Shown piece by piece: positions 1,998-63,227 of a stretch of 64,000 nt of DNA. The stretch's first letter is position 1, and each line of letters opens with the position of its first letter. Source of the stretch: Providencia huaxiensis (GTDB lineage: Bacteria; Pseudomonadota; Gammaproteobacteria; Enterobacterales; Enterobacteriaceae); the NCBI RefSeq assembly GCF_002843235.3, contig NZ_CP031123.2:2356001-2420000 (forward strand). The letters are read 5' to 3'. Made by a program: the position numbers and the translations under genes. The notes beneath the pieces are model-generated. The model saw nothing but the letters and a program-made list of their open reading frames with translations, ran no database searches and was not told where the DNA came from.

Positions 1998-3125
<1,128 letters not shown>

Positions 3126-3398
3126 TTACCGCAAATATGTTCGAATTAATGAGATAGCGTCGTCTACAGAGTCTTTTTGCAACTGTGTTGTCGCAGACTC
3201 CTGAAGCCCTTCTCGTAAATGACTCTCTAATACCCCAGCCATCAAGCCATTAACTGCACCGCGAATAGCAGCAATTTGTTGTAAAATGGCTGCACATTCA
3301 ACTTCATCTTCCAAGGCCGACTCCAAGGCAAGCAATTGCCCTTTCAACTTTCTGACCCGTGTAAGGACTGCTTTTTTTTCTTTTGGGGAATGTGGCAT
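3126..3398 (-). CDS. frmR: Formaldehyde-responsive repressor FrmR
   Basis: A 90-residue DUF156/CsoR-RcnR family regulator. It keeps the features tied to formaldehyde sensing in FrmR: Pro2 after the start methionine and Cys35 (VECAAIL). In the family, formaldehyde crosslinks these two residues and releases the repressor from DNA. The core LQQIAAIRGAVNGLMA is nearly identical to E. coli FrmR. It is first gene of the frmRAB operon, and its upstream region contains a probable operator at 3414-3440, so the operon should be autoregulated. Confidence 0.95.
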   Translation of the reverse strand: MPHSPKEKKAVLTRVRKLKGQLLALESALEDEVECAAILQQIAAIRGAVNGLMAGVLESHLREGLQESATTQLQKDSVDDAISLIRTYLR

Positions 3399-3413
3399 AT
3401 TTAAGCCCCTTTG

Positions 3414-3440
3414 ATATACATAGGGGGAGTATAGTATTAG
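3414..3440 (-). promoter_or_regulatory. Probable FrmR operator
   Basis: Sixteen bases upstream of frmR, a five-G tract (3423-3427) is flanked by AT-rich arms, ATATACATA on one side and AGTATAGTAT on the other. This is the layout of FrmR/RcnR-type operators, a short G/C tract inside AT inverted arms, and it resembles the E. coli frm operator. Confidence 0.65.
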
Positions 3441-3566
3441 TCAGATTATCTGTACAGAATTCCTTATTTTTATGACCAAAAAAGACAAAATAATACCCAG
3501 TGGAAAAGTGAAACAGTAAAACACCAATATCGAGCTTTACTGTCTCCAATTAGGAATAGATCAACG

Positions 3567-4484
3567 CTACAACAAGTTGAAGTATTTATCTGGCTGGTAC
3601 TGAGGGGGAAGTGGTTTAATATCTAACATATCCAATGCATTACGTTCAATACTATTACAAATGGCATTAAGCGGTAAATCATTTGCAGCAATCCCAAAAG
3701 GATCCTCAAGTTCCTCCGCTAATGCATCCCACGCTAAGAAGGTATAAGAAATAAAAACAGACACAAATGGCGTCATAAAATGCAAGTCAACGACCAATGC
3801 AAAAGGAAGTAATGAACAAAATAAGTAGACTGTTCGCTGCAAAATGAGTGTATAAGCAAATGGGATCGGTGTATTCGAAATCCGCTCACAGCCACCAAGT
3901 ACCTCCGATAGCGCATTAATATCTTTATTAATGGCTTGAAAGAGCACATCACTGATGACTTTTTTATCGCGTAATTCCCCCACCTTTAGGCCAATCTGCA
4001 ATAATATTCGGCTAGTGGGAAACGGACTTTGGATAACTTCATCAAAAATAGCTCGGGGTAGCAACCTATACAAATCAATGACTGGGCTGGTTTTTCTTAA
4101 TTCATGTTTAAGGCTCCAACCAAAAGCGATCAATAAATTAGCAAATTCCTTTTGAGCTGATGGGTCATTGGGTAATAATCCTTTAATATTTCTTAGAATA
4201 TTTCTTTGGTTGATCAATAACGAAGCCCAAAGCGTCCTAGCCTCAATCAAGCGGCTATAACATGCGTTATTACGAAAACCTAGGAATATTGCGATAGCAA
4301 TCCCTAGCAAACTAAAAGGGGCTATCGTTAAGTGTATACCTAATCGTTCGTACCATTGAAAACTGAGTACAGCCACGATGGATATCATTATATTTAGAGA
4401 AAGCCGAAATGTTATTTTTGACAGTACAGAACCATGCCAGTCAAATAACCGAAAAAACCAGTGTTGATGAGGGCGAATAACCAT
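3567..4484 (-). CDS. yneE: Bestrophin-like inner-membrane protein YneE
   Basis: A 305-residue member of the bestrophin/UPF0187 family, whose characterised bacterial members form pentameric anion or cation channels. The N-terminus (RPHQHWFFRLF) and the segments LGFRNNACYSRLIEAR and CERISNTPIPFAYTLILQRT match E. coli YneE closely. Hydrophobic stretches near residues 28-70 and 210-255 fit the membrane helices of the family. No strong ribosome binding site precedes the ATG. It stands alone downstream of the DUF1090 gene, and nothing nearby suggests a substrate. Confidence 0.85.
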   Translation of the reverse strand: MVIRPHQHWFFRLFDWHGSVLSKITFRLSLNIMISIVAVLSFQWYERLGIHLTIAPFSLLGIAIAIFLGFRNNACYSRLIEARTLWASLLINQRNILRNIKGLLPNDPSAQKEFANLLIAFGWSLKHELRKTSPVIDLYRLLPRAIFDEVIQSPFPTSRILLQIGLKVGELRDKKVISDVLFQAINKDINALSEVLGGCERISNTPIPFAYTLILQRTVYLFCSLLPFALVVDLHFMTPFVSVFISYTFLAWDALAEELEDPFGIAANDLPLNAICNSIERNALDMLDIKPLPPQYQPDKYFNLL

Positions 4485-7006: not shown

Positions 7007-7966
7007 ATGGTTGGTGCTCGCATGAAAAAAGCAGAGTATTTTATAAAAAAATTACGTACACTCATTATGAGTGATAATATCTATCTCTCTAATAAATTCA
7101 CTAAAAAACTCAATTATCGCCCTGACTTTAAAGCACCAAAAAGCTTTAATGAGAAGGTCAACTTTAGAATGCTACGAGATAAAAATCCATTATATTCACA
7201 ATTTGCGGATAAACTCACCGTTAGAGAATATATTTCCCGAACAATAGGAAATGAATATTTAGTTCCTATTATAGCTACTTATAAAAATGTCGATGAAATT
7301 GATATAAATAAACTGCCAGAGCGTTTTGTTTTAAAATGCAATCATGATAGTGGCAGTAGCATTATTTGTCGCAATAAAGCGCAATTTGATTGGCCAAAAG
7401 CTAAAAGCAAATTGGATTTTCACTTAACTAAAAATCTTTACTATATTACTCGAGAGCGCCATTATAAAACGATTCCCGCACAGATTATGTGTGAAGAATA
7501 TATTGATTTATTCGCTAATAAAAACCGAAAGTTAGTGCCTGAAACATGCAGGATCCACTGCTTCTCTGGCAAGCCTGTCTATGCAGAGATTGACTACTCC
7601 GATGAATTTGGCAATGAATTTATTAATATTTACGATACCAACTGGCAATTGCAACCCGTGACTTTTGGTTATCCAAACATGATGGAACCCGTATCTGAGC
7701 CACCATTATTCAAAGAAATGTTACGGTTAGCAGAAATACTCGTCACACCCTTTGATTATTGCCGAGCTGACTTTTTGATGTCTGATGAAAATACGTTGTA
7801 TTTCAGTGAACTCACTTTCGCCCCAAATGCAGGCAGAACAGAAATATCACCCCTGTCATGGGATTTCAAATTGGGAGAACTTTGGGAACAACGTATTGTA
7901 CGTAACACAAGGCATTTACCCATCGAAGCACAACTTGCACCTTCAGCTGCAAGTAAAAAGAAATAA
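7007..7966 (+). CDS. TupA-like ATP-grasp protein (polysaccharide/glycan-associated)
   Basis: A 319-residue protein of the TupA-like ATP-grasp family, often found in capsule, O-antigen and teichuronopeptide loci and thought to ligate amino acids or modify sugars. Family hallmarks are FNEKVNFRMLRD near the N-terminus, FVLKCNHDSGS (nucleotide-binding lysine), CEEYID, and FDYCRADFLM...LYFSELTFAPNAG near the C-terminus, the last carrying the acidic metal ligands. An alternative ATG lies at 7022 (MKKAEY); neither start has a convincing ribosome binding site. The gene is alone and not in a surface-polysaccharide cluster, and its low GC suggests acquisition. Confidence 0.75.
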   Translation: MVGARMKKAEYFIKKLRTLIMSDNIYLSNKFTKKLNYRPDFKAPKSFNEKVNFRMLRDKNPLYSQFADKLTVREYISRTIGNEYLVPIIATYKNVDEIDINKLPERFVLKCNHDSGSSIICRNKAQFDWPKAKSKLDFHLTKNLYYITRERHYKTIPAQIMCEEYIDLFANKNRKLVPETCRIHCFSGKPVYAEIDYSDEFGNEFINIYDTNWQLQPVTFGYPNMMEPVSEPPLFKEMLRLAEILVTPFDYCRADFLMSDENTLYFSELTFAPNAGRTEISPLSWDFKLGELWEQRIVRNTRHLPIEAQLAPSAASKKK

Positions 7967-18228: not shown

Positions 18229-18705
18229 TTATTTTGTAACTGAATCCATTAATTTATCGTCTGTAGACCAGATACGGTATTTTACTTGCATATCTTTCGG
18301 AGCATAAACCACAATCGGTAATTTGCTGTTATAACGCACAAATGCATCATCACCTAATTGAGTTGTCACAAAACGGTCTTTTGCAGGTTCAGAACACCCC
18401 ATCATAGTAGATGCAGGGCCTTTTACTTCGTCAAGTTTATAATAATCATAACCCCAGCCTTCCAACGTCTTTCTGTCTAGGTCACCCATAAACCATTGGC
18501 GGTTACAATCTGCTTTGATCGTTTTTCCAATAACTAACTCAACCATAAAGTCATTTTCATTTTGTTGCTTGGTTAATTCAATCACATGACGAGTCATACC
18601 CGATTCTGCTTTTGGGTATGGCGCGATCTTTTCCAAATCCTCCGTTGCGACTGCACATGATGAAATTAATGCCGCTGCCATTACAGATAAAATCGCTTTT
18701 TTCAT
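18229..18705 (-). CDS. eco: Ecotin, periplasmic serine protease inhibitor
   Basis: A 158-residue secreted dimeric inhibitor of trypsin-, chymotrypsin- and elastase-type proteases. A signal peptide ends near residues 18-21 (SSCAVA). The reactive-site loop STMMGC matches the E. coli STMMAC, with the P1 methionine and the disulfide cysteine retained; the partner cysteine is in KADCNRQW. TLEGWGYDYY and RYNSKLPIVVYAP are near-identical to ecotin. An AGGAA element lies before the ATG. It is a single gene, convergent with uspF. Confidence 0.95.
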   Translation of the reverse strand: MKKAILSVMAAALISSCAVATEDLEKIAPYPKAESGMTRHVIELTKQQNENDFMVELVIGKTIKADCNRQWFMGDLDRKTLEGWGYDYYKLDEVKGPASTMMGCSEPAKDRFVTTQLGDDAFVRYNSKLPIVVYAPKDMQVKYRIWSTDDKLMDSVTK

Positions 18706-21541: not shown

Positions 21542-21576
21542 AAAGGTAATTCGCCTTTCAGTGACAAATTACCTTT
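21542..21576 (-). terminator. Terminator of the coiled-coil protein gene
   Basis: On the minus strand AAAGGTAATT and AATTACCTTT form a 10-bp stem with a 15-base loop, followed by a run of T. It begins 25 bases after the stop codon. Confidence 0.75.
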
Positions 21577-21601: not shown

Positions 21602-24600
21602 TTATTTTGCTTTGATTATTTTTAAATCAATGATTGACATGGAGTTTGGTGGCACTTCTCCTGGTATACCGTCAACACCATACCCTCCTTCAGGTTTAAT
21701 ATAGACTTTAACCATACCCCCTTCCCCTGCTCGTTCTACAAAGGAATTTAATGGCGTTGGTAACTGACTATAAGGTAATGTGACCGGGTTTTGGTCGGTG
21801 TACAATACCGTAACCTTACCATCCGTTAATTGCTCTCTCATAATAAAAGTCACGTCTTTATTTTTAACATCTTTTATAGGAGAACCTGCTTGAATGATTT
21901 TATAGTAAGTGTTGCTATCGAGCTTACTGTATTTTTGAGCGGTGATTTGCTCAATAATTTTTTGGTTTTTCTTCGCATTTTCTGCGGCAACCGCTTTTGC
22001 ATCTTTGCTAGGTGGAACTCGCCCTGCCAAGCCAGTATTCGGTTTTGTGCCACTTCTCGCTTTTAATGCATCATTTTCATCTTGTAACTGAGTTATCAAT
22101 CGGTTTAATTCCATAATTTGTGATTTTAAAGTTTCATCACTCGAAATGGATTTACGCGAATCTAGCTCTGTTTGTAATTTTTTCAACTTCTCTTGTGCTG
22201 ATGCCAACTCTTTTTGAGAATTAGTTTTTAAATCACCAAGAAGTTTATTCGTCTCTGTCAGTTTTTGCTCAATCTCAGGCTGTTTCTTTGTTTTAGCCGC
22301 AATATCGCTTTCAAGTTTACTAATTTTGTCTTCTTGGGACTTAGCCTGTTTAACAAATTGCTGGTTTTGCTGCTCAAGTTTTTTCTTCTCACTTTCCTGG
22401 GCAGTCAGTGCATCATTAATTGATTTTTTCTCAGATTCCAACTTAGCTAAAGCGGCTTCTTTCTGTTTCAATAATGCAATTTGTTTATTTAAGTCTGTCG
22501 TTAACTCTTTGACTTGCTTGTCACTTGCTTGCCCTATTAGCGCCGTTTGTTTTTCAACATCTTTTTGCAACTTCAACAGATCCGCATTGGCCTGTTGCAA
22601 TTGTTTTTGAGCATCAACAAAATTCTGTTCATTTTGCTTTAAGTTTGTTTGTAATTGTTCCTGTTGCTTTTGGCTCTCAGCATATTGTTTTGATAATGTA
22701 TTTTGTGCTGCTTGCTGCTCAGCTAACTGTTTTTTCGCTATTGCTAATTCTGACTCTAACGCCACTTTCTGAGCCGCCTTCGCGGTCTGCTCGGCTAAAG
22801 AGGCTTGAATTTTGTCTGCTTGTTGCGCTTTTTGTTGCAGCTCGGCGGTCAGTTGCTGGTTTTTCTCCGCTAATACTTTTGCATCCGCTTGCTGCTTCGC
22901 TAAAGCCTCACGAGTAGTTTGGCTTTCCGTTTCCGCTTTCTTCAAACCGTCTTCTTTTTGCTTCAACAAGGCGAGTTGTTTGTTTAAATCGGCGGTCAGT
23001 GCTTTAACTTGCTGATCGCTCGCTTGATTCATTAAAGCGGTTTTCGTTTCGACTTCATTTTTTAACTTCTGTAAATCTGCATTCGCTTGCTTCAGCTGCG
23101 CCTGTGCTGTGGTGTAATTTTGCTCTTGTTGAAGGAGTTTTGCCTGCAAGTCTGCCTGCTGTTTTTCACTGTTCGCAAACTGTTTGGACAACGCATTTTG
23201 CGCAGTTTGGTGCTCGGCTAACTGTTTTTTCGCCTCAGCCAGCTCAGCTTCTAACGCCACTTTCTGAGCCGCCTTCGCGGTCTGCTCGGCTAAAGAGGCT
23301 TGAATTTTGTCTGCTTGTTGCGCTTTTTGTTGCAGCTCAGCCGTCAGTTGCTGGTTTTTCTCCGCTAATGCTTTTGCATCCGCTTGCTGCTTCGCTAAGG
23401 CTTCTCGAGTAGTTTGGCTTTCCGTTTCCGCTTTCTTCAAACCGTCTTCTTTTTGCTTCAACAAGGCGAGTTGTTTGTTTAAATCGGCGGTCAGCGCTTT
23501 AACTTGCTGATCGCTCGCTTGGCTCATCAAGGCAGTTTGTTTTTCCATATCAGCTTGGAGCTTCTGTAAATCTGCATTCGCTTGTTTCAGCTGCGCCTGT
23601 GCTGTGGTGTAATTTTGCTCTTGTTGAAGGAGTTTCGCCTGCAAGTCTGCCTGCTGTTTTTCACTGTTCGCAAACTGTTTGGACAACGCATTTTGCGCAG
23701 TTTGGTGCTCGGCTAACTGTTTTTTCGCCTCAGCCAGTTCGGCTTCTAACGCCACTTTCTGAGCCGCCTTCGCGGTCTGCTCGGCTAAAGAGGCTTGAAT
23801 TTTGTCTGCTTGTTGCGCTTTTTGTTGCAGCTCAGCCGTCAGTTGCTGGTTTTTCTCCGCTAATGCTTTTGCATCCGCTTGCTGCTTCGCTAAGGCTTCT
23901 CGAGTAGTTTGGCTTTCCGTTTCCGCTTTCTTCAAACCGTCTTCTTTTTGCTTCAACAAGGCGAGTTGTTTGTTTAAATCGGCGGTCAGTGCTTTAACTT
24001 GCTGATCGCTCGCTTGGCTCATCAAGGCGGTTTGTTTTTCCATATCCGCTTGGAGCTTCTGTAAATCTGCATTCGCTTGTTTCAGCTGCGCCTGTGCTGT
24101 GGTGTAATTTTGCTCTTGTTGAAGGAGTTTTGCCTGCAAGTCTGCCTGCAGTTTTTCACTGTTCGCAAACTGTTTGGACAACGCATTTTGCGCAGTTTGG
24201 TGCTCGGCTAACTGTTTTTTCGCCTCAGCCAGTTCGGCTTCTAACGCCACTTTCTGAGCTGCCTTCGCGGTCTGCTCGGCTAAAGAGGCTTGAATTTTAT
24301 CTGCTTGTTGCGCTTTTTGTTGCAGCTCGGCGGTCAGTTGCTGGTTTTTCTCCGCTAATGCTTTTGCATCCGCTTGCTGCTTCGCTAAAGCCTCACGAGT
24401 AGTTTGGCTTTCCGTTTCCGCTTTCTTCAAACCGTCTTCTTTTTGCTTCAACAAGGCAAGTTGTTTGTTTAAATCGGCAGTCAGTGCTTTAACTTGCTGA
24501 TCGCTCGCTTGGCTCATCAAGGCGGTTTGTTTTTCCATATCAGCTTGGAGCTTCTGTAAATCCGCATTCGCTTGTTTCAGCTGCGCCTGTGCTGTGGTGT

Positions 24601-27124
24601 AATTTTGCTCTTGTTGAAGGAGTTTTGCCTGCAAGTCTGCCTGCTGTTTTTCACTGTTCGCAAACTGTTTGGACAACGCATTTTGCGCAGTTTGGTGCTC
24701 GGCTAACTGTTTTTTCGCCTCAGCCAGCTCAGCTTCTAACGCCACTTTCTGAGCCGCCTTCGCGGTCTGCTCGGCTAAAGAGGCTTGAATTTTGTCTGCT
24801 TGTTGCGCTTTTTGTTGCAGCTCAGCCGTCAGTTGCTGGTTTTTCTCCGCTAATGCTTTTGCATCCGCTTGCTGCTTCGCTAAGGCTTCTCGAGTAGTTT
24901 GGCTTTCCGTTTCCGCTTTCTTCAAACCGTCTTCTTTTTGCTTCAACAAGGCGAGTTGTTTGTTTAAATCGGCGGTCAGCGCTTTAACTTGCTGATCGCT
25001 CGCTTGGCTCATCAAGGCAGTTTGTTTTTCCATATCAGCTTGGAGCTTCTGTAAATCTGCATTCGCTTGTTTCAGCTGCGCCTGTGCTGTGGTGTAATTT
25101 TGCTCTTGTTGAAGGAGTTTCGCCTGCAAGTCTGCCTGCTGTTTTTCACTGTTCGCAAACTGTTTGGACAACGCATTTTGCGCAGTTTGGTGCTCGGCTA
25201 ACTGTTTTTTCGCCTCAGCCAGTTCGGCTTCTAACGCCACTTTCTGAGCCGCCTTCGCGGTCTGCTCGGCTAAAGAGGCTTGAATTTTGTCTGCTTGTTG
25301 CGCTTTTTGTTGCAGCTCAGCCGTCAGTTGCTGGTTTTTCTCCGCTAATGCTTTTGCATCCGCTTGCTGCTTCGCTAAGGCTTCTCGAGTAGTTTGGCTT
25401 TCCGTTTCCGCTTTCTTCAAACCGTCTTCTTTTTGCTTCAACAAGGCGAGTTGTTTGTTTAAATCGGCGGTCAGTGCTTTAACTTGCTGATCGCTCGCTT
25501 GGCTCATCAAGGCGGTTTGTTTTTCCATATCCGCTTGGAGCTTCTGTAAATCTGCATTCGCTTGTTTCAGCTGCGCCTGTGCTGTGGTGTAATTTTGCTC
25601 TTGTTGAAGGAGTTTTGCCTGCAAGTCTGCCTGCAGTTTTTCACTGTTCGCAAACTGTTTGGACAACGCATTTTGCGCAGTTTGGTGCTCGGCTAACTGT
25701 TTTTTCGCCTCAGCCAGTTCGGCTTTTAAGGCGTTTTCTAATGCAACTTGTTGCTCTGCTTGTTCCGTTTTCTTCGCCAGAGAAACTTGAATTTTTTCTG
25801 CTAATTGTTCTTTTTCTACCAACTGAGTTTGTAATTGCTGGTTTTGTAACTCTAATAATTTACTTTTTTCTTGCTGGGCGACTAAAGACGATGCAACACC
25901 ATCTTTTTCACTTTTAACGGTCGCTAATTCATTTTCTTTCTGTTTCAACAGTTCTTTTTGCTGTAAAAGTTCAGCTGTCACTGATTTCATCAGCTCATCA
26001 GCGTTACCCGCGACTTGCAGTTGATTTTTAGATTCCAACTCTAATTTTGCAATATCCGCAGTTAGTTGCTCAATTTTCAAATTTGCAGCAGCAAATTGCT
26101 GTTCTTTATCTGCTAATTGCTGTTTAAGTTGGGCTTGTTCAACGACACTTTCATTTAATTGTTTTTCAAGTTGAGCAATCGTTTCTTGGGTTTGCTGATT
26201 TTCTTGACTCAATTGATCAAGACTATTTTGCTTTTGCTCAATTGTTTTTTGAGCATCCGCCAGTTTAGTCTTTAATGTGTCAATTAAAGATTGGTCATCT
26301 GATGAATTGACAATTGCCTGTAATTTCGCGATTTGCTCTTTACTTTTCAGAACGTCATCATTTAGTTTATCAATCTCAAATTGTTTTTCCGTAATTGTAT
26401 GCGTTAATTGCGCGATACTCTTATTATGATTAATGAGTTCAGAAACGAGTTGTTCATCATTGAGCAAATGATTATAGGCAATAAGTTGGCCTACACCTTG
26501 AGCAATACCAAACTTATATAGATGTGCTAATTGCTGACGTTCAATTAATTGCGCCAATTGCTCAAGATAAGCAGAGGTATTAATACCTGTTGGCTTGGCA
26601 AATTTAGATGCATATAAGCCGAGTGGGTCAAGAACCAATTGATATTTTGCAAAATCTTTGGCTAGATAAGCAGGATCCCATTGATTGCTTTGGAAGAAAT
26701 AAGGGTAAGACGACAATAAAATAGGGGATGCCCCATTTTCTGTCGTCACCGCACACACTTCAGAAAAAGTCGTTTTTTCCGGTTCAGCAGGCTCTGCCTT
26801 CGCAACATCTACTTTCTTCGTTGATGCCGCAGTAGATTTATTCTTCCCTGTAGCTTTGCCTTTCGTTCCTTTATTCGCTGCCGCAGATTTTTGTTTCTCT
26901 TTTGGAGCAGGAACAGTAGATAGCGAAGAAAAGATTTCATAACCCTGGTTTTGTGTATTAACTGGCAATTGTTGCTTTTGTTCTTGTACTTTGCCTTCTT
27001 TTTCCATTTGAAGATAAGTATCAAAATCATCAATTACATTGTTAAAGCGCTCTGCTTTTGGAGCATGACTAAAAAAAGTCGTAACAAGTGCCAGTGACAC
27101 ACAAAGCCTAAGGTTTATTCTCAT
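21602..27124 (-). CDS. Giant exported coiled-coil repeat protein with FKBP-like C-terminal domain
   Basis: An 1,840-residue exported protein. Residues 1-24 look like a signal peptide (MRINLRLCVSLALVTTFFSHAP); a low-complexity K/A/T region follows to about 120, then a globular part with a helical segment (about 120-240), then about 1,450 residues of heptad-patterned coiled coil. Residues 468-1457 are six consecutive 165-residue units, nearly identical in protein and DNA, followed by one degenerate unit. The last roughly 105 residues resemble an FKBP fold (PEGGYGVDGIPG, VPPNSMSIIDLKI), but the conserved active-site tryptophan region reads PLNSFV, so isomerase activity is doubtful. FkpA/Mip proteins also combine a helical N-terminus with FKBP. 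It overlaps the upstream lipoprotein gene by 4 bases (ATGA), implying translational coupling. Probably a long periplasmic or envelope-spanning rod; the function is unknown. Confidence 0.85.
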   Translation of the reverse strand: MRINLRLCVSLALVTTFFSHAPKAERFNNVIDDFDTYLQMEKEGKVQEQKQQLPVNTQNQGYEIFSSLSTVPAPKEKQKSAAANKGTKGKATGKNKSTAASTKKVDVAKAEPAEPEKTTFSEVCAVTTENGASPILLSSYPYFFQSNQWDPAYLAKDFAKYQLVLDPLGLYASKFAKPTGINTSAYLEQLAQLIERQQLAHLYKFGIAQGVGQLIAYNHLLNDEQLVSELINHNKSIAQLTHTITEKQFEIDKLNDDVLKSKEQIAKLQAIVNSSDDQSLIDTLKTKLADAQKTIEQKQNSLDQLSQENQQTQETIAQLEKQLNESVVEQAQLKQQLADKEQQFAAANLKIEQLTADIAKLELESKNQLQVAGNADELMKSVTAELLQQKELLKQKENELATVKSEKDGVASSLVAQQEKSKLLELQNQQLQTQLVEKEQLAEKIQVSLAKKTEQAEQQVALENALKAELAEAKKQLAEHQTAQNALSKQFANSEKLQADLQAKLLQQEQNYTTAQAQLKQANADLQKLQADMEKQTALMSQASDQQVKALTADLNKQLALLKQKEDGLKKAETESQTTREALAKQQADAKALAEKNQQLTAELQQKAQQADKIQASLAEQTAKAAQKVALEAELAEAKKQLAEHQTAQNALSKQFANSEKQQADLQAKLLQQEQNYTTAQAQLKQANADLQKLQADMEKQTALMSQASDQQVKALTADLNKQLALLKQKEDGLKKAETESQTTREALAKQQADAKALAEKNQQLTAELQQKAQQADKIQASLAEQTAKAAQKVALEAELAEAKKQLAEHQTAQNALSKQFANSEKQQADLQAKLLQQEQNYTTAQAQLKQANADLQKLQADMEKQTALMSQASDQQVKALTADLNKQLALLKQKEDGLKKAETESQTTREALAKQQADAKALAEKNQQLTAELQQKAQQADKIQASLAEQTAKAAQKVALEAELAEAKKQLAEHQTAQNALSKQFANSEKLQADLQAKLLQQEQNYTTAQAQLKQANADLQKLQADMEKQTALMSQASDQQVKALTADLNKQLALLKQKEDGLKKAETESQTTREALAKQQADAKALAEKNQQLTAELQQKAQQADKIQASLAEQTAKAAQKVALEAELAEAKKQLAEHQTAQNALSKQFANSEKQQADLQAKLLQQEQNYTTAQAQLKQANADLQKLQADMEKQTALMSQASDQQVKALTADLNKQLALLKQKEDGLKKAETESQTTREALAKQQADAKALAEKNQQLTAELQQKAQQADKIQASLAEQTAKAAQKVALEAELAEAKKQLAEHQTAQNALSKQFANSEKQQADLQAKLLQQEQNYTTAQAQLKQANADLQKLKNEVETKTALMNQASDQQVKALTADLNKQLALLKQKEDGLKKAETESQTTREALAKQQADAKVLAEKNQQLTAELQQKAQQADKIQASLAEQTAKAAQKVALESELAIAKKQLAEQQAAQNTLSKQYAESQKQQEQLQTNLKQNEQNFVDAQKQLQQANADLLKLQKDVEKQTALIGQASDKQVKELTTDLNKQIALLKQKEAALAKLESEKKSINDALTAQESEKKKLEQQNQQFVKQAKSQEDKISKLESDIAAKTKKQPEIEQKLTETNKLLGDLKTNSQKELASAQEKLKKLQTELDSRKSISSDETLKSQIMELNRLITQLQDENDALKARSGTKPNTGLAGRVPPSKDAKAVAAENAKKNQKIIEQITAQKYSKLDSNTYYKIIQAGSPIKDVKNKDVTFIMREQLTDGKVTVLYTDQNPVTLPYSQLPTPLNSFVERAGEGGMVKVYIKPEGGYGVDGIPGEVPPNSMSIIDLKIIKAK
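22754..25723 (-). repeat. Six tandem 495-bp coding repeats with a 1,485-bp higher-order period
   Basis: The period is exactly 495 bases (165 codons), so copy-number change keeps the frame. Copies in coding order start at 25723, 25228, 24733, 24238, 23743 and 23248. Variants recur every third copy: EKLQ appears in copies 1 and 4, EKQQ in 2, 3, 5 and 6, and the AGCTCAGC variant at the left edge of copies 3 and 6 lies 1,485 bases apart. This indicates that a three-unit block was duplicated. Copy 6 then gained its own changes (KNEVETKTALMNQ). Confidence 0.95.
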
Positions 27125-27675
27125 AATCCACTAATTTTCTTCAATGTTGATTCGGTAGACAATACTGAGTTATAACGAACTTTTGCACACAATACTTTGG
27201 TTTTAGATTCTATCGCCATTTGTAATAATTCAATTGTGTCAGGGCTAGCAGTCCCTTCAACTTGTCGATATAGACGGTTGATTTCGCTAACTTCTTTAAA
27301 TGAACCTACTAAGCGATTGTAATCTTTTGGTGAGAGTGTTTTGAGCGCGTTTAATTCTTTAACACACGTATTCAAATGAGCAAATGTTTGCTGATCAGCA
27401 CCCGCTTCACCATAAGTTGTAGAAGCAACTGGTGTACGGTTAATTGCGTTGTTTAAAACTTTTTGAGATTCAGGATAAGAGTTATCAGCCTGACCTGGAT
27501 TGGTATCAACAGTCGATTGTGTTACCGGCTGAGTGGTACTTGTATTGACTACCTGTTTACTTGGGGTATTCGGTGTTGCTGTATTGTATGAGTCTGAGCC
27601 AAATGTACAACCTGAAAGAAGAGCTGTACCTGCTATAAGCAAAGATGCAACATAAAATTTATTTTTTAAAAACAT
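27121..27675 (-). CDS. Outer-membrane-type lipoprotein upstream of the coiled-coil protein
   Basis: A 184-residue lipoprotein. The signal peptide ends in the lipobox LLSGC with the lipidated cysteine at residue 23; Thr at +2 argues for sorting to the outer membrane. A serine/threonine/proline/glutamine-rich linker (about 30-85) leads to a helical domain (about 100-184) with two cysteines (NTCVKEL, VLCAKVR). GGTAAGGT precedes the ATG. The stop codon overlaps the start of the giant coiled-coil gene, so the two are co-translated and probably work together, for example as an outer-membrane anchor for the rod. I know no named family for it. Confidence 0.8.
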   Translation of the reverse strand: MFLKNKFYVASLLIAGTALLSGCTFGSDSYNTATPNTPSKQVVNTSTTQPVTQSTVDTNPGQADNSYPESQKVLNNAINRTPVASTTYGEAGADQQTFAHLNTCVKELNALKTLSPKDYNRLVGSFKEVSEINRLYRQVEGTASPDTIELLQMAIESKTKVLCAKVRYNSVLSTESTLKKISGL

Positions 27676-61230: not shown

Positions 61231-61578
61231 TTAGTCATCAATAATATTAATTTCTTTATCAATTAACCGACCAAAATCTTCACTTTGTGAAATTACTGTG
61301 ATGGTTTTCTGTATTAATTCCTCAATACTAGCTTGGAGCTGTTCTGGAATTAAACATTCAACATCGTCCAATTCGCAACCTAGGTTAATTATCCCTATTA
61401 ATTTTTCATCTGAACCCATTTGTTCGAGTAGTTTAGCCAAATAAGGTTTGAAAACAAATCCTTCTGCCTCATCAATCGATATCAAATTTTTATCTAATGC
61501 AGTTAATACACCTAAAGTTAATAAGCTTATAAATTTGCTCGTCTGTTTATCACTAATACTATAATTAAGCCTAGTCAC
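61231..61578 (-). CDS. DUF3969-like protein, candidate immunity gene
   Basis: A 115-residue acidic helical protein. FISLLTLGVLTALDKNLISIDEAEGFVFKPY followed by LGCELDDVECLIPEQLQASI resembles the DUF3969 family, which is often found beside polymorphic toxins. It is third in the cassette, 96 bases after the 74-residue gene and 74 bases before the 94-residue gene. It could protect against a toxin not present here. Family assignment is from memory of the motif. Confidence 0.6.
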   Translation of the reverse strand: MTRLNYSISDKQTSKFISLLTLGVLTALDKNLISIDEAEGFVFKPYLAKLLEQMGSDEKLIGIINLGCELDDVECLIPEQLQASIEELIQKTITVISQSEDFGRLIDKEINIIDD

Positions 61579-61928: not shown

Positions 61929-63227
61929 TTATGGCTCTCTAAAAACAATAAATTTCTTACCATCTATACTAAATCTTAATACCCGACCATCAGGTGATTT
62001 AGCATCAATCACTTCAATTCTTTTCCTATTTTCATAAATAGTTCTAGGTCTTATTATTACATTTGGATTATCTAATATTTCATCGATTAATGCTCTAGCT
62101 TCCTGATTCAATACTGAAGCTTTTTGGTTGGAATATGAGTATGCAGATCCTTCCCTACCCCCATGCTTTTGGAGCGATCTGCCAGCATTTGTTAAACCAT
62201 TGCGATTGATTTCTGATGCTGCTTGCTTTAGTTCTTCTTTAGAAGGAAGATCATTATTTTTTATAGAGAACTCATCAGGTTCCCACCCCTCCGGTCCTCC
62301 TGCCCCAGAGCCCCCTGCCTCTACTTTATCTGAATTTGATAACTCTTTCCCAACATTTGGATTTTTTGCTGTTTTATCTAAATCATTTGAGCAACTCATG
62401 CCAAAAGAGCAATCAAACGTTTCCGCTAGGCCATCGCGAATATTACCTAATGCCTTTTCGATACCTTTTGCAATACTGCTATCTGCTGTTTGTGTTACTT
62501 GTGAATTTGAACCAACGCCATGAGGTAATGTAGGAACATTCGGTGTGGGAACGGCAAATACACTACTTTGGGCTATTTTCAGCTTATTTAATTCATTTAC
62601 ATTAAACTGAATTTTATCCGTAATATTTTTATGTTGTCTCTTAATTTCGAGCAATTGATTTCTAGCATCACGGTCAGCTCGCTTATTAACCGCATCTATA
62701 TATAGATCTATATTATCAAAAGGAAACCTCGGTATACCCGGTATATTATCGTCAAAATCATCTGCGAGGAGCCTGTCTCTATCTTCAATTGTGCGAAATT
62801 TAAAGGTTGCTGAAATTTTTAATTTTGAGGAGTCTGAAGATTGAAAATGCCATTTGTACGTACATGGATATTTTTGTGGATCAATGATAAATTTCCAGCC
62901 AGGCGATTTTTCAATCTCCGCAATATCCTTTCTCAATATAATTAAATCATTTTCAATTAATGTTTGTTTAGATTTTAAATTATCCTTAATTTTAATCGAA
63001 GGATTTTTAAAAATGTCGACTTTGTGATTATTAACATCATCATGAATGTCAGTTAGTTTTATATTATCATAAAGATTTTCATGTAAAATACATTTTAATT
63101 TTTCATACCTCCCAGTTAAATCAATATCTTCATGAGCATTATCATAATTATTAAAATAATCATTAAGATGTTCTCTTGGATTGTTTCCCCATACAGTTAT
63201 TGTACCTAGATGTGTCACATCATCCAT
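61929..63227 (-). CDS. Polymorphic/bacteriocin-type toxin with C-terminal nuclease-like domain
   Basis: A 432-residue protein without a signal peptide. The N-terminal part (1-240) is unrecognised, beginning THLGTITVWGNNPREH and ending in a proline-rich stretch (VFAVPTPNVPTLP). A linker with glycine-rich GGSGAGGPEGW (about 305-320) leads to a C-terminal toxin-like domain (about 345-432): AGRSLQKHGGREGSAYSYS, a middle with LNQEARALIDEIL, and the ending SPDGRVLRFSIDGKKFIVFREP. This plan recurs at the C-termini of Rhs, CDI and bacteriocin toxins, where a nuclease role is suspected. No PAAR, Rhs repeats or two-partner signals are present, so the delivery route is open. A lysis gene is also absent. 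Confidence 0.7.
   Translation of the reverse strand: MDDVTHLGTITVWGNNPREHLNDYFNNYDNAHEDIDLTGRYEKLKCILHENLYDNIKLTDIHDDVNNHKVDIFKNPSIKIKDNLKSKQTLIENDLIILRKDIAEIEKSPGWKFIIDPQKYPCTYKWHFQSSDSSKLKISATFKFRTIEDRDRLLADDFDDNIPGIPRFPFDNIDLYIDAVNKRADRDARNQLLEIKRQHKNITDKIQFNVNELNKLKIAQSSVFAVPTPNVPTLPHGVGSNSQVTQTADSSIAKGIEKALGNIRDGLAETFDCSFGMSCSNDLDKTAKNPNVGKELSNSDKVEAGGSGAGGPEGWEPDEFSIKNNDLPSKEELKQAASEINRNGLTNAGRSLQKHGGREGSAYSYSNQKASVLNQEARALIDEILDNPNVIIRPRTIYENRKRIEVIDAKSPDGRVLRFSIDGKKFIVFREP

Follow-up and report, generated by a model that had tools for sequence, protein, structure and literature searches.

In Periscope Proteins, long and highly similar DNA repeats build a stalk, their number varies from one related genome to another, and intragenic recombination has been proposed as their source of variation (PMC8201768, PMC9704523). 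The review defines them as monomeric chains attached to the cell surface and composed of repeat domains that fold individually; coiled-coil stalks that are multimeric, as in trimeric autotransporters, are placed outside the definition (PMC8201768). The 1840-aa protein reported here, which is encoded in a 64,000-nucleotide stretch of Providencia huaxiensis DNA (termed the window), resembles them in possessing a stalk of tandem repeats that are highly identical at the DNA level (six 495-bp units with 0-28 differences). Its repeat number may likewise be variable, with six units in its own genome, G000, and five in G012, and a difference of one unit between the proteins P0010 and P0011, set against seven P. 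alcalifaciens-type sequences of a single length. In contrast with them, it displays no individually folding domains but a heptad-type core periodicity of about 3.5 residues in the four unit classes tested, as judged from sequence, while the surface attachment that the definition asks for is suggested here just by a signal-peptide-like start and a lipoprotein neighbor. By the review's definition the protein is not a Periscope Protein, yet it would work like one.

Two other systems invite comparison. The FkpA/Mip-type FKBPs share with the present protein a signal-peptide-like start, a helical part and a C-terminal FKBP fold, although here seven of the eight pocket positions are lost and the FKBP_N domain is not seen in Providencia. 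Lpp and similar envelope spacers are helical and lipid-anchored; here, unlike in Lpp, rod and lipoprotein are encoded by two distinct genes, and the rod exceeds those spacers in length many times over. Among the literature matches listed, judged by title or abstract start, no description of the protein or of the gene pair was found.

Organization of the Locus

The protein is encoded by a single open frame on the minus strand (Table 1), and a search of its own genome returned one match to the gene. Within the frame, positions 22754-25723 are filled by six in-frame units, each of exactly 495 bp with zero indels, and TRF reported a single array in the whole window, located at 22686-25729 with a period of 495, 6.1 copies, 96% matches and 0% indels. 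The six exact-length coding repeats that an earlier note on this DNA had described were hence confirmed. The units are numbered in coding order. The array also contains antisense ORFs of 102-130 aa, which were rejected as a mirror of the repeat.

Table 1. Features of the repeat-bearing gene and its surroundings, in window coordinates
Feature	Position	Strand	Description
184-aa lipoprotein-like gene	27121..27675	-	upstream of the 1840-aa gene with a 4-bp overlap; lipobox Cys23, conserved Cys104 and Cys163
1840-aa gene	21602..27124	-	opens with a signal-peptide-like start and an N-terminal region, continues as a very long coiled-coil stalk and ends in an FKBP-fold domain
N-terminal region, residues 1-231	26432..27124	-	has a signal-peptide-like start; one Cys (124) beyond it
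Repeat unit 1	25229..25723	-	identical to unit 4
Repeat unit 2	24734..25228	-	identical to unit 5
Repeat unit 3	24239..24733	-	5 private sites
Repeat unit 4	23744..24238	-	identical to unit 1
Repeat unit 5	23249..23743	-	identical to unit 2
Repeat unit 6, mosaic edge unit	22754..23248	-	first 158 nt as in unit 3; 18 private sites
Edge block within unit 6 (coding positions 184-222)	23027..23065	-	largely common to edge units of G012, G005 and G006
Seventh unit, diverged	22259..22753	-	203-206 differences from units 1-6; clusters with the terminal units found in 14 further genomes
Exact 1150-bp duplicate, first copy	24576..25725	-	lag 1485
Exact 1150-bp duplicate, second copy	23091..24240	-	lag 1485
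Predicted FKBP-fold domain, isomerase pocket lost	21605..21967	-	FKBP_C match, Foldseek FkpA/LpMIP, pocket residues
Terminator-like hairpin	21542..21576	-	past the stop codon; consensus scan only

Elsewhere in the window, a TupA-like ATP-grasp protein (7007-7966, Pfam E 3.5e-48) and ecotin, of a protease inhibitor family (18229-18705, Pfam E 8e-49), were observed. A DUF3969 protein (61231-61578) lies downstream of a 432-aa ORF without a Pfam match (61929-63227), and the two may, as a guess, constitute a toxin and immunity pair.

The 1,485-bp Period and Its Age

The longest exact run in the array extends over 1150 bp at lag 1485, whereas lags 495 and 990 give runs of at most 248 bp. Pairwise comparison revealed no difference between units 1 and 4 or between units 2 and 5, while units 1 and 2 differ at 5 sites, 1 and 3 at 14, 2 and 3 at 15, and 3 and 6 at 23. 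Twelve of the 35 variable sites carry a variant common to several units, all 12 following a period of three units; of the remaining 23, 18 are found in unit 6 alone and 5 in unit 3 alone. Neither the array nor the 1150-bp run can be attributed to chance. Among the 15 possible pairings, 1-4/2-5/3-6 gives the lowest summed difference (23; next 33), a test whose p by itself can be no lower than 1/15. The motif EKLQ occurs in units 1 and 4 only, and AGCTCAGC as the unit-edge variant in units 3 (24726-24733) and 6 (23241-23248) only, the same octamer being present at four further in-array places away from the unit edges. The hidden higher-order period and the recurrence of variants in every third unit, both noticed earlier, are thereby borne out. 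The proposed kinship of opposite units holds outright for 1-4 and 2-5. For 3-6 it holds from the side of unit 6 only, which differs from each of units 1-5 at 23-28 sites, unit 3 itself being nearer to units 1, 2, 4 and 5 (14-15 differences). The cause of this looser pairing is the age of unit 6, an edge unit that bears an older edge block (coding positions 184-222).

The absence of any difference over 1150 bp sets an upper 95% bound of 0.26% on the divergence of the two copies. Between the own genome and its nearest relative G012, which share 96% DNA identity across the adjoining 6 kb, 27 of the first 1350 nt and 23 of the last 700 nt of the gene differ. Provided that gene conversion has not intervened, the duplication of the block falls into roughly the final 8-13% of the period that has elapsed since the split from G012. 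The newest event in the lineage would be this duplication of a three-unit block, giving rise to the 1,485-bp period. Of the 11 genomes in which lag-3 pairs could be used, the own genome alone shows its smallest difference at lag 3; the lag table excludes pairs that differ at more than 120 sites.

An assembler that had duplicated a three-unit block in a truly shorter array would likewise yield exact 1150-bp identity at lag 1485, and it would fit this explanation that lag 3 is lowest in 0/10 of the other genomes with usable lag-3 pairs and that the contigs of some relatives end inside the gene (G007, G016, L053 and L054). Such an artefact is nevertheless considered very improbable: the gene resides in a 4.57-Mb contig of a 4.8-Mb genome, a size that suggests long reads, the 23 differing sites between units 3 and 6 mean that the block is no plain copy, and a similar six-unit array is resolved in the complete genome of a relative (NZ_CP053896, 1838-aa frame).

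N-Terminal Region and Shaft

The single further cysteine of the N-terminal region is kept in 23/23 listed frames that cover it (21 Providencia, Morganella and G105). The alignment of this region omits G006 and G023. The fold model of this region was poor (mean pLDDT 51), and it was set aside as unfit for structure search. A sequence scan found nothing resembling a membrane span after residue 40, and the protein, rod-shaped by its sequence, is probably exported.

The stalk contains a single proline within residues 236-1690. In the 165-residue class, the core residues recur with a period of 3.51 residues, and each unit accommodates a whole number of coil steps, namely 47 per 165 residues (six genomes), and 29 per 102, 25 per 89 and 24 per 84 (one genome each). 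By our arithmetic, 165 and 102 are heptads plus one hendecad. This periodicity points to a coiled coil, which would presumably be oligomeric. Matches to the SMC family and GAS were rejected, since they fell below the cut-off and are usual for coiled coils. If each residue adds 0.15 nm, the shaft would, when straight, extend for about 216 nm, and the periplasm is far narrower than this.

The C-Terminal FKBP-Fold Domain

The domain was aligned for 20 of the 24 Providencia members and one Morganella, with G006, G007, G016 and G019 excluded. When excised, it matched FKBP_C in 21/21 members, the window domain scoring 21.3 bits, just above the Pfam cut-off of 21.1, while the whole window protein matched no FKBP model in Pfam or NCBIfam at E up to 0.01. 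Moreover, the domain profile retrieved FkpA and Mip structures, and the model of the domain (mean pLDDT 82.5) gave FkpA (TM 0.72) and LpMIP as top Foldseek hits. These profile and model results indicate that the C-terminal domain adopts an FKBP fold.

The eight isomerase pocket positions were taken from FKBP12. Seven of the eight are replaced or gapped in all 21 aligned copies, with Y82 alone kept; F36 and D37 shift between two alignments and are lost in either. All eight are intact in the FkpA-like (a frame of 253 aa) and FklB-like proteins of the same genome. The same seven positions have likewise been lost in six proteins of five further genera, two of which lack Y82 as well. As judged from these residues, the FKBP-like domain is most likely not an isomerase.

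FKBP_N was not seen among the six families of the window protein, nor among the 25 listed of 56 families for the 24 members, and is present in the relatives L086, L087 and L088. The relatives G054, G025 and G110 are matched by NCBIfam NF008150 (PRK10902, FkpA) at E 1e-25 to 1e-34 and below its cut-off. A second shaft-type protein with FKBP_N was observed in G025 (L088:1452-3917), where it bears 13-residue proline-alanine-rich repeats.

The Paired Lipoprotein-Like Gene

The gene pair recurs with the same overlap in Morganella, and in genus G105 the two genes are adjacent without overlap. The N-terminal region of the long protein was found in four of 119 sampled family genomes, which are two Providencia, Morganella and G105. 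Across 12 diverse lipoprotein members, the lipobox cysteine and two further cysteines are kept. Outside Providencia, Morganella and G105, a coiled-coil or FKBP-like neighbor was present at 11 of the 17 lipoprotein loci examined and absent at six; at two of the 11 (L099 and L102) the locus ends ahead of any FKBP part. The lipoprotein search count omits hits to the first part of the model only in other frames, and the hits G054:C15:40368, G058:C58 and G105:C97 lie outside the examined set.

Lipoprotein relatives without a shaft neighbor include L091, L092 and L096, whose neighbors we take, by eye, to be groL-, rpoD- and fliQR-like genes. Another relative (L103:1312-1794) lies near an ORF (L103:2108-3277) whose start, in our estimation, resembles an inverse-autotransporter adhesin.

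Copy Number and Unit Length Among Relatives

Homologues of the N-terminal region were detected in all 24 Providencia genomes searched, the own genome included. The period of the array is 495 bp in 14 of them, 306 bp in five and 267 bp in one, and in the remaining four it could not be judged owing to contig ends, Ns or frame breaks. Eight copies affected by breaks, Ns, an insert or contig ends (G001, G004, G007, G011, G014, G016, G019 and G023) were used in pieces only. In the G011 copy, an insert of about 1.4 kb (L029 about 2520-3885) interrupts the gene and contains an ORF that is presumably, by eye, transposase-like; G001, G019 and G023 have frame breaks.

The earlier note had expected the protein to vary between strains in steps of 165 residues. 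Whole-unit change was indeed found between relatives: the open frames of G000 and G012 measure 1842 and 1677 residues, one 165-aa unit apart, and those of G017 and G020 1842 and 1512, two units apart. The database proteins P0010 and P0011, 97% identical over 1225/1264 aligned residues, differ by one 134-aa unit and a 3-residue gap. At strain level the expectation is unsupported as stated, since seven P. alcalifaciens-type proteins (six so named and one other; 98.2-99.5% identical) are all of 1095 aa, in a search that admitted 0.55-1.75 times 1840 aa only and to which a form one 102-aa unit shorter is invisible. The whole-protein homologue search scored the 7988 candidates with most words in common and gave 11 proteins. 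A search with residues 1-231 gave nine, with no long P. rettgeri form among them, so that the database cannot settle length at strain level. No plasmid record matched the N-terminal region.

In addition to the 165-, 102- and 89-residue units of Providencia, units of 134 residues occur in P0010/P0011 and of 84 residues in Morganella, where the period is 252 bp and two records contain frames that are 1602 and 1088 residues long. Within the window protein, the 102-residue unit is best matched by residues 339-424, before the array, with 51% identity, and weaker matches are found inside the array and in unit 7; for this reason, a single ancestral stalk seems to have been amplified in different parts by different lineages. 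Shaft-bearing proteins of relatives span 301 to 1333 aa, and those of other genera comprise short whole proteins of 301 and 432 residues and longer ones with other repeats, of 822 residues (lags in multiples of 39 bp), 975 residues (lag 387 bp) and 1333 residues (lags 96 and 192 bp). That relatives lengthened the same rod with other units suggests that rod length has been evolutionarily adjusted. The shortest complete Providencia frames seen have 1058-1061 aa, the database protein P0001 has 1044 aa, and none of the Providencia copies seen lacks a long shaft.

Homogenization and Selection on the Units

A tree was constructed from 83 of the 85 units of 21 genomes, two units that are not 495 nt long having been excluded. 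Units were grouped by genome in G010 (6/6), G018 (5/5), G015 (5/5), G008 (4/4), G019 (3/3) and G021 (2/2), with support of 99-100, and a separate group (support 100) unites one unit, terminal or only, from each of 15 genomes. In the other six of the 21, no unit falls into this terminal cluster, and G005 and G006 have units that intermingle on the tree. Genome labels change 33 times on the tree against a shuffled mean of 66.5, and none of 200 shuffles was as low. According to the tree, interior units mostly cluster by species, which reveals lineage-specific homogenization; together with the identical 1150 bp, this accords with the recent expansion or homogenization that the near-identity of the units had implied. 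In G005 and G006, the flanks of the array differ at 8/1350 and 0/700 nt, units 1-6 at equal positions differ at 7-20/495, and unit 7 at none, so that the interior changes faster than the flanks.

The history proposed earlier, in which a single unit was amplified to three and the three-unit block was then duplicated, is supported in its second step. We infer that the array in this lineage was probably not begun as one unit amplified to three, because repeats of 165 aa date far back in the genus, because 15 of the 21 genomes with units have a diverged orthologue in last place, and because unit 6 retains an edge block largely common to G012_5, G005_6 and G006_6.

Estimates of dN/dS were low, at 0.04-0.06 for interior units between species (three estimable pairs), 0.09 and 0.16 for unit 7 (two pairs) and 0.02-0.16 within genomes (three pairs), four further pairs being saturated. 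They bear on the explanation that the shaft is neutral filler, lengthened by slippage and expanding without function because any helical length is tolerated. It would agree with this explanation that period and copy number vary widely across species with no length preserved, and that 4/24 Providencia copies (G001, G011, G019 and G023) carry frame breaks or an insert. The low dN/dS and the lack of a short-shaft copy among the Providencia sequences seen argue against it, and we regard it as rather unlikely.

Proposed Function of the Shaft

The reading that we favor, with a measure of confidence, is that the array forms the shaft of an exported coiled-coil protein which is co-made with the lipoprotein and carries an FKBP-fold domain at its far end, the whole acting as a spacer of adjustable length. 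Unequal recombination or slippage between the near-identical DNA units would add or remove whole units, and both the reading frame and the coil register would survive such a gain or loss, since every unit has a length that is divisible by three and matches the coil. Between the FKBP-like head and the N-terminal end, the shaft would act as a separator; the N-terminal end may be held at the outer membrane by the lipoprotein, as the overlapping gene suggests.

Several observations count against the adjustable-spacer reading: the length of about 216 nm, the 6/17 lone lipoproteins, the fixed 1095 aa in 7/7 proteins, the 6/21 genomes without a terminal-group unit, the intermixing of G005 and G006, and the broken copies. 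Because a straight rod of this length exceeds the width of the periplasm, a simple trans-periplasm spacer cannot be right, and the shaft has to take a flat or bent course or else be located extracellularly. Outside the cell, it might be an exposed surface stalk or adhesin, the length of which varies to hide or project the head, and the length of the rod fits better there than within the periplasm. The likeness to Periscope Proteins speaks for the same explanation (PMC8201768). We nonetheless find it doubtful, in that no autotransporter, barrel or sorting-signal match was obtained in Pfam/NCBIfam at E up to 0.01 and no known outer-membrane route is therefore apparent; the same search gave no match to the C-terminal membrane anchor or barrel of autotransporters, the C-terminus being FKBP-like.

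Implications

On a broader view, which is put forward tentatively as a possibility, the adjustable spacer would belong to an enterobacterial family of dead FKBPs and lipoproteins that evolves by shaft length, in which lineages have independently amplified different coil segments in frame and in register, and which would represent a coiled-coil counterpart of the Periscope Proteins and perhaps a length gauge of the envelope.

The locus provides a natural series for repeat expansion under constraint, where the same gene at the same place has been built with several unit lengths, and this series includes old end units, homogenized interiors and one very recent three-unit event. Meanwhile, a gene pair composed of a lipoprotein and a shaft-bearing, probably dead FKBP exists in several enterobacterial genera, and since the shaft-bearing proteins range from 301 to >1800 residues, the role of shaft length is directly testable.
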